Source: Beduinella massiliensis (lineage in GTDB: Bacteria; Bacillota; Clostridia; Christensenellales; Aristaeellaceae). Taken from it: a stretch of DNA of 64,000 nucleotides. The stretch covers positions 2,077,605-2,141,604 of the forward strand of contig NZ_LT963430.1 of NCBI RefSeq assembly GCF_900199405.1, read 5' to 3'. The notes under the pieces are model-generated. The model had not been told where the DNA came from. It was given only the letters and a program-made list of their open reading frames with translations, and made no database searches. The position numbers and the translations under genes were made by a program. Shown one piece after another: positions 11,841 through 13,388 of this stretch. The first letter of the stretch is position 1, and each line of letters opens with the position of its first letter.

Positions 11841-13004
11841 TTGCATTTTGCCAATGATCGGCTGTCCAAGCCGCATTTCGACTGGCAGCTGTTCGTCGCG
11901 GCCTACGCGCTGGCGATTTTCGGCGTGCTGGCCGTTACGATTACCAACTACGACCCCTCCCTGGGAGCGGACCGCTCGATCATCGAGCTGGTCATGGATT
12001 CCTACAACGGCCGATGGCAGGCGGCTTTCGTGCTCGTCAGCTTTGTGGCCGTCGGCGGCATGATGTCCATCAACTATCAGTTCCTCGGCCGCGTCTGGCC
12101 CTTCCTGTACGTGGCCAACGTCGCCCTGCTTACGCTGGTGCTTGCGTCCGAGGCGATCACGGGCATGAAGGGCTGGTTCTCCATCATCTGGGATCGAACC
12201 ATTCAGCCCTCCGAGCTGGCGAAGGTCGCAATCATCATCTCCCTGTCCAAGGAGCTTTCGCGCCATGAAAAGCCGGTGCCTACGCTGCGCTATTTCATGC
12301 GGCTGTGCATCCATATCGGTATTCCGTTGATGCTTATCATCGCACAGCCGGACATCGGCACGATGCTGGTGTTCGTCGTCATCTTCTTTTCGCTGCTTCT
12401 GGTTTCGGGCTTCCCGATGAAGTATTGGCTGGCGCTTGTGGGCGCGGGCGTCGTCGTCTGCATCGCGGCGGGTTTTATGCTGCAATCCACGGGCAACTGG
12501 CGCTGGCTGCGGCTGACGGCCTTCGTCAACCCGGAGGCGGATCCGACCGGTTCGGGCTTTCAGACGCTGCAGGCGATGACCGCGGTTGGCGCGGGCGGAA
12601 TGACCGGCGTGGGCATGTTTAAGGAAGGTACGCTGACGCAGCTCAACTTCGTGCCCGAAAACCATACGGACTTCATCTTTTCTTCCGTCGCGGAGACGAT
12701 GGGCTTTGTGGGGTGTATCATCCTGCTGGTACTCTACGCCTTCGTGATATACCGGATGCTCCGCCTTTCCTACCATACGTCGGATCGCTTCGGACGGCTG
12801 GTTATTGTGGGCGTGGCGAGCATGCTGATCTTTCATATGTTTGAAAACATCGGCATGAACATCGGCGTCATGCCCATTACGGGCATCCCGCTGCCGTTTA
12901 TCAGTTATGGCGGCTCCAACCTCATCGCGAACATGGCGGGCATCGGCCTGGTGCTCAACGTGACGAGGCGCAAGCCGATCACGCGCGTCATGGACGCAAC
13001 CTGA
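11841..13004 (+). CDS. rodA: SEDS peptidoglycan polymerase RodA
   Basis: The 387-residue protein has about ten membrane segments and SEDS signatures: KGWFSIIWDRTIQPSELAK in the central loop, ENHTDFIFSSVAE and the C-terminal PLPFISYGGSNLIANMAGIG. It polymerises glycan strands from lipid II with PBP2. The start is TTG at 11841, with AGAGGAG nine bases upstream; the ATG at 11834 is out of frame. RodA and the related FtsW are distinguished here by the operon, which is a cell-elongation cluster. Confidence 0.92.
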   Translation: MHFANDRLSKPHFDWQLFVAAYALAIFGVLAVTITNYDPSLGADRSIIELVMDSYNGRWQAAFVLVSFVAVGGMMSINYQFLGRVWPFLYVANVALLTLVLASEAITGMKGWFSIIWDRTIQPSELAKVAIIISLSKELSRHEKPVPTLRYFMRLCIHIGIPLMLIIAQPDIGTMLVFVVIFFSLLLVSGFPMKYWLALVGAGVVVCIAAGFMLQSTGNWRWLRLTAFVNPEADPTGSGFQTLQAMTAVGAGGMTGVGMFKEGTLTQLNFVPENHTDFIFSSVAETMGFVGCIILLVLYAFVIYRMLRLSYHTSDRFGRLVIVGVASMLIFHMFENIGMNIGVMPITGIPLPFISYGGSNLIANMAGIGLVLNVTRRKPITRVMDAT

Positions 13005-13019
13005 TTGCTTCGACCTCCT

Positions 13020-13046
13020 GCTGTCCCGGCGAATGCCGAGGGCGGC
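13020..13046 (+). repeat. Terminator-like stem, copy 1 (no T-run)
   Basis: The stem is GCTGTCC-CGGC, loop GAAT, GCCG-A-GGGCGGC. It differs from copy 2 at 13258 by one base (T for C) in the arm, but is followed by TCTGG, so it should not terminate by itself. It begins 16 bases after the rodA stop. Confidence 0.6.
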
Positions 13047-13257
13047 TCTGGTCATCGACAAAGTCGATGGCCTCGTGCAAAATGAATCTTCATTTAGCAC
13101 GAAGAATAGGGGAGATGTTTTCCTCCGCAAATGCTGTGTGTTTGACTACGGAAAACGCCCCGCCCGCCCGGCAAAGCCGGTCGATACGATTTCACATGCA
13201 GGGGAAGTCTCCCCTGTATGCATCCCCTCTTACGACGTTACTTTGTCGATGATCTAT

Positions 13258-13289
13258 GCTGCCCCGGCGAATGCCGAGGGCGGCTTTTT
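13258..13289 (+). terminator. Intrinsic terminator of the mre-rodA operon
   Basis: GCTGCCC-CGGC, loop GAAT, GCCG-A-GGGCGGC gives an 11-bp stem with one G-U pair and one bulged A, followed by TTTTT. It is the only good terminator downstream of rodA before dpaA. Confidence 0.85.
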
Positions 13290-13388
13290 GACTTTTCTGG
13301 AGGGGCCGTTCGGTGAGGGCGGCGGGCACCGCCCGCTTGCACCTTTTTCGCGCTGGTGCGTAGGATGGAGAAGAAGCGAGGAGGAGGG

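Follow-up and report, generated by a model that had tools for sequence, protein, structure and literature searches.

The 209-nt block that lies between two copies of a hairpin downstream of rodA is, very probably, a non-autonomous MITE with ends of the IS1182-family type, which inserted at the rodA terminator hairpin and duplicated it. The block belongs to a repeat family with common ends whose copies lie between duplicated hairpins, and like ends, with the same kind of duplication, are found around the IS1182-family transposase genes of relatives.

The duplicated rodA hairpin and the block between its copies

The features of the locus are as follows (positions are those of the window, i.e., the whole stretch of 64,000 nucleotides that was analysed):

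11841-13004, + strand: rodA (RodA/FtsW family), the gene upstream of the hairpin, whose terminator is the proposed insertion target
13019-13047, + strand: terminator hairpin, copy 1; direct repeat, without T-run
13048-13256, + strand: MITE, 209 nt, with edges set by the duplicated flanks
13048-13064, + strand: left terminal inverted repeat CTGGTCATCGACAAAGT, mostly overlapping hairpin S1
13050-13072: hairpin S1, which contains most of the left terminal inverted repeat
13073-13102, + strand: hairpin S2 (TCGTGC..GCACGA)
13117-13156, + strand: hairpin H1, which encloses a further hairpin (from the fold)
13158-13189, + strand: conserved core, CCCCGCCCG + hairpin H3 + CGATACGA (from conservation among own copies)
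13195-13220, + strand: hairpin H4 (from the fold)
13240-13256, - strand: right terminal inverted repeat, reverse complement TAGATCATCGACAAAGT (from the repeat search)
13257-13285, + strand: terminator hairpin, copy 2; direct repeat, with T-run at 13285-13289

The rodA product scored 330.7 bits (E 1.1e-98) against NCBIfam TIGR02210 rodA_shape, slightly below the cut-off of 336.7, and 190.7 bits against NF037961 RodA_shape, which exceeds the cut-off of 150. Located 3' of the block are dpaA, whose best match, to NF006162 (E 7.9e-53), is below the cut-off of that profile, and dpaB, which has a match above its profile cut-off.

The sole direct-repeat family retrieved by a repeat search was the 29-nt hairpin, whose two copies share 28 of 29 letters (97%). 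The sequence-only reading had described these copies as duplicated stems of 27 bases at 13020-13046 and 13258-13284; the duplication is real, and those stems were one base short at each end. Its statement that only the second stem has a T-run was also correct, since copy 1 is followed by CTGGTCATCG and copy 2 by TTTT. Neither copy was listed by a scan for consensus terminators, and the identification of the hairpin as a terminator thus rests on its position, its stem and the T-run.

The block itself contains five hairpins between imperfect inverted-repeat ends, the terminal 17 nt at either end being part of inverted-repeat arms of 25 nt that are 80% complementary. Its predicted folding energy is -88.6 kcal/mol, compared with -55.7 +/- 4.5 kcal/mol for shuffled sequences (z -7.3), and none of 200 shuffles equalled it. 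The description of a hairpin-dense spacer of about 210 bases that includes the TCGTGC..GCACGA hairpin therefore holds; the inverted-repeat ends had not been mentioned there.

Copies of the element and the hairpins that flank them

Fifty-eight places in the own genome (4.18 Mb, three contigs, 97.85% complete) match the block. Thirteen of them are opposite-strand matches to the palindromic hairpin S2, 30 nt in length, and were left out of the locus count; the other 45 were merged, by hand count, into 40 loci, the window's own included. The 31 most complete copies, a few of which lack one end, were aligned, and nine one-ended fragments were dropped. In this alignment, similarity ends at the ends of the inverted repeats.

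Beyond these ends, the left and right flanks of the same copy align with each other at a score of at least 30 (over 16-39 nt) in 20 of the 31 copies; the same score was attained by one of 930 mismatched pairs of flanks. What is duplicated is a hairpin specific to each copy, which in clear cases is included from one foot to the other, as with AGGGCGGGG..CCCCGCCCT in L012. The sequence that follows the second hairpin is T-rich in 18 of the 20 copies and that following the first in one; in nine of the 20, the sequence before the first hairpin is also A-rich. The repeat family, its ends and the duplicated flanks support the earlier proposal that a mobile structured repeat was inserted in the rodA terminator, duplicating it. 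The small RNA with its own terminator that had been proposed alongside is not needed, as the second hairpin is a copy of the target; because this hairpin differs from copy to copy, it is not part of the element.

Duplication was below the threshold in 11 of the 31 copies, two of which (L029 and L040) have weak duplications. In some of the others the left hairpin differs from the right one, which would be the expected result of recombination between copies, and some have a clear hairpin on one side alone. There are also very short derivatives in the own genome (L079, L080, L081, L082 and L083), which consist of both ends only, the left-end hairpin only, or the right end; by eye, most of them are still located directly 3' of a hairpin.

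A hand-made consensus of the element matched 67 of 300 genomes of the taxonomic family (own genome included), belonging to 18 of 50 genera. Among the listed matches outside the own genome, many of them partial, all those with E <= 1.2e-10 span consensus positions 113-144, i.e., the core, which was also the segment matched most frequently in other genomes; in a few genomes the match is to the left 51 nt of the consensus only. A search of a collection of 84,980 species with the exact core pattern retrieved 66 stretches (67 matches), all of them from MAGs, with titles naming Clostridia, Clostridiales, Eubacteriales, Christensenellaceae, Candidatus Limiplasma, Bacillota, or simply "bacterium". Together with the 40 own loci, these matches show a block that is neither unique nor unconserved, two of the properties that the sequence-only reading had named as speaking against its proposal.

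We have searched the surroundings of 45 of the 67 core matches in MAGs (cores less than 300 nt from the end of a locus were dropped) for flanking direct repeats. Strong repeats were present at 15 of the 45 cores and at 1 of 76 control positions. Fourteen of the 15 are hairpins, two of which (L152 and L160) represent one site in two assemblies. The elements between the 14 hairpin pairs are 157-315 nt long, the longest being a tandem of two, and have, by eye, ends of the type CAGACTGTCRAAAAAGT. In L150, MITEs are arranged in tandem inside one pair of duplicated hairpins, and in L117 and L180 they are located side by side.

No MITE match was found in the two other genomes of the same genus (G065 and G025). 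In both of them (L232 and L233, respectively), an ORF different from dpaA is located, by eye, within about 30 bases of rodA, and gene order 3' of rodA thus seems to differ within the genus. It follows that these genomes provide no orthologous empty site.

IS1182-family elements with like ends and the proposed route of insertion

Ends of the kind seen in the MITE are located 3' of terminator-like hairpins in Candidatus Limiplasma pullicola and lead into an ORF starting MKMLKKEAEQRQAIEMLCTDMLVPKGHLLRKIDAAVNF, which we take to be IS1182-like. Of 200 genomes searched in the taxonomic family, 94 have matches to the IS1182 model NF033551, and 29 loci (L202-L230) were collected with it; two transposases checked against this model (cut-off 270) scored 415 bits (L210) and 433 bits (L270). 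A MITE-type end (the CAGACCGTTGACAAAGT type, described by a degenerate pattern) abuts a stem of at least six pairs at 13 of the 29 loci, the background being 411 random 44-nt windows out of 2900 that contain such a stem. At six loci (L204, L205, L207, L210, L211 and L230) the same hairpin is present at both ends of the IS. L203 has two different hairpins at its ends, and some other loci are cut by contig ends. In L204, the IS that follows the hairpin starts with CTCAGACCGTTGACAAAGTA, the letters of the right end of the MITE consensus (92% over 25 nt by BLAST). When loci L195-L230 were compared with the MITE consensus at E <= 0.1, the only matches were to its right end, in L204 and L223.

A search of the class (presumably Clostridia, as judged by Limiplasma) revealed IS1182-family matches in 95 of 245 genomes, and 20 multi-copy loci were taken from five of these. 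In G487, perfect hairpin duplications of 22-30 nt flank five of six copies, and the sixth copy is located between two different hairpins. Elements with CAGAC-type ends, which share the NF033551 transposase with the IS1182 family in general, show duplication here; the IS1182-family elements of G503, G524, G392 and G470 have ends of other types, and duplication was found at 0 of these 14 copies, whose borders are approximate. Among 29 further class loci (L240-L268), hairpin duplications and broadly fitting ends were found in L240, L241, L244, L245 and L252; L247, with two mutually inverted hairpins and unfitting ends, was left out of this count. Thus, full-size relatives that carry a transposase gene likewise duplicate hairpins, and the duplication seems to track the type of end rather than the whole IS1182 family. 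For the IS1182 family, ISfinder reportedly records direct repeats as long as about 60 nt, which suggests that its curators saw such cases.

The two hairpins of L024 differ by paired changes, from A-T to G-C on both arms, and those of L252 by a flipped centre. Such differences suggest either correction templated by the hairpin or selection acting on the stem.

The length of a target duplication is normally fixed by the transposase. In the elements described here it tracks the folding of the target site instead, and they thus provide good evidence from nature that transposition at the feet of stem-loops depends on structure. For the chemistry of the strands we infer the following route. The target palindrome would be extruded as a stem-loop or cruciform, and an IS1182-type transposase, presumably acting in trans on the MITE, would join the element at the 5' feet of the extruded stem-loop. 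Repair of the gaps would then copy the whole hairpin to both sides, and the length of the duplication would equal that of the hairpin (16-39 nt in the own genome). The first copy would be severed from the T-run, which the second would retain. Since the T-run is kept by the second copy only, mRNA of the upstream gene probably extends through the element as far as the restored terminator. Such read-through would make the insertion nearly harmless and the element a structured 3' UTR, and copying the terminator on which it lands suggests a way for an element to fill a genome at little cost.

This route agrees with one of two pathways of a model published in 2017 (PMC5678879), which has the element joined either at the 3' feet of a cruciform, so that the stem-loop is removed (pathway a, IS1272), or at the 5' feet, so that it is duplicated (pathway b, drawn as a possibility); the elements studied here fit pathway b. 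According to PMC4923244, IS1272/TnSha1 of Staphylococcus resembles the elements described here in having an IS1182-family transposase, in inserting into palindromes, including terminators (five of seven hairpin sites being confirmed ones), and in showing little sequence preference. It differs in that all or part of the stem-loop is deleted and target duplication is absent, whereas here the whole stem-loop is duplicated. One family with two outcomes, the stem duplicated or removed, offers a clean test system. That some IS1182 members target palindromes was noted by Siguier et al., as cited in both papers. Short, mostly non-coding, structured and repeated elements also include ERIC, RUP, BOX and SPRITE, as summarised in a review (PMC10969869); what sets the present family apart is the terminator-hairpin target, a duplication of hairpin length and a structured core that was not found in the IS copies compared. 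Among the titles and abstract openings listed by a literature search, with subscription papers mostly outside its reach, there was no report of terminator-duplicating MITEs, of the conserved core, or of an observed case of pathway b.

One can also suppose that the MITE is moved by another transposase, which shares its ends by chance, and that the link to IS1182 is coincidental. We consider this very unlikely. In its favour, a complete IS1182 gene with matching ends was not found in the own genome, and the partner is thus inferred from relatives; conversely, like ends and the unusual duplication of hairpins occur together in IS1182-family elements across several families of the class. The longest IS1182 matches of the own genome, L195-L197, have alignments that begin only at profile position 74 or 145, and they were rejected as the autonomous partner since their ends are of another type; a weak end-like stretch, with 4 mismatches out of 15, is located just outside L197. 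L079 was likewise rejected: it has two end-like stretches, and no transposase was noticed by eye among its ORFs.

A 2.6-kb repeat is represented by L195 (G000:C3:2075172-2076449), L196, L197 and L198, the copy in L198 being split or rearranged. The repeat has an IS1182-family transposase ORF, which matches part of the profile, and a second ORF that, by eye, resembles an IS3-type orfB. Its end, GGGGCCGTTGCACAAAAAGACCG, is of another type, and one of its copies is located about 1.2 kb ahead of the first position of the window. L199 (G000:C3:916022-916348 and its surroundings) is the remnant of a truncated IS1182 element; it has a CAGAC-like end beside a hairpin and adjoins a repeat array that by eye resembles a CRISPR array (GTTTTCCCCACCCGCGTGGGGGTGAACCG).

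The structured core and its orientation

Conservation of individual segments was calculated from 24 own copies, with seven of the 31 omitted. The core is the best-conserved segment (mean majority 0.956), followed by the other inner segments (0.744-0.925), the value for the flanking hairpins being 0.42. For a comparison across genomes, 42 of 63 non-redundant cores were aligned; 21 that were judged by eye to be poorly alignable were left out. The alignment has 29 invariant columns, most of them invariant by selection, since the sequences were chosen for the presence of the core motif; the two hairpins beside the motif are only partly constrained by this choice. A 19-pair structure, which was drawn with the sequences in view, fits 90.4% of cells, compared with 78.9% in shuffled alignments and 33-47% when slid by 1-3 columns, and cells changed on both sides number 104, against a shuffled mean of 43.8. 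By two other measures, namely pairs with double changes (11 versus 9.5 in shuffles) and further pair types (22 versus 21.6), the alignment did not exceed shuffles.

That the core hairpins covary by some measures, and that the block folds far better than shuffles, would also be expected if it were a conserved non-coding RNA unit that owns both flanking hairpins, as a double terminator or attenuator, and spreads as a whole. We regard such a unit as very unlikely: the flanking hairpins are unconserved between copies (0.42 versus 0.74-0.96 inside), yet match within a copy, and flanks of the same kind surround transposase genes. Group IIC introns select sites next to intrinsic terminators, and a retroelement or a group II-intron-like insertion after terminators would account for the targeting and for an RNA-like structured body; it is highly improbable given the inverted-repeat ends, which are common to IS1182-family elements, the target duplication, the lack of RVT_1 reverse transcriptase matches in the 97.85% complete own genome and of group II intron matches at E <= 1 in five element-bearing loci. 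No Rfam family matched anywhere in the window at gathering thresholds, and nothing relevant was found at E <= 1 on the five loci.

Under the reading preferred here, i.e., a MITE with IS1182-type ends, the inside of the element calls for a separate explanation. MITE mobility needs the ends alone, and conservation of the inside thus suggests that this part has a function, either in RNA or in single-stranded DNA; a structured core is in this way exposed inside a MITE family. It is possible, and we propose this tentatively, that the core (CCCCGCCCG-hairpin-CGATACGA) and its two neighbouring hairpins, with stems rewritten from genus to genus, form a functional module of structured RNA or single-stranded DNA that does not derive from an IS and was spread on IS1182-type ends. 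By landing in terminators and restoring them, it could have become a passenger of transcribed 3' UTRs, a bacterial counterpart of SINEs, with a preferred orientation along transcription.

Orientation was judged from T-runs in crude 10-nt windows, with L129, a direct repeat without a hairpin, left out. Among the duplicated copies of the own genome, T-runs were found on the core strand only in nine, on the other strand only in none, on both in nine and on neither in two. For all 40 duplicated cases, the core strand is favoured by 17 to 4, with 13 having T-runs on both strands and six on neither (binomial p 0.007, related copies not being independent). In L127, and probably in L110, the duplicated stretch contains the T-run, and these cases were possibly misread as antisense.

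Five MITE copies (L032, L033, L037, L041 and L045) contain additional GC-rich modules in two places, one in or beside hairpin H1 and the other beside hairpin H3, as if the loops take modular inserts.
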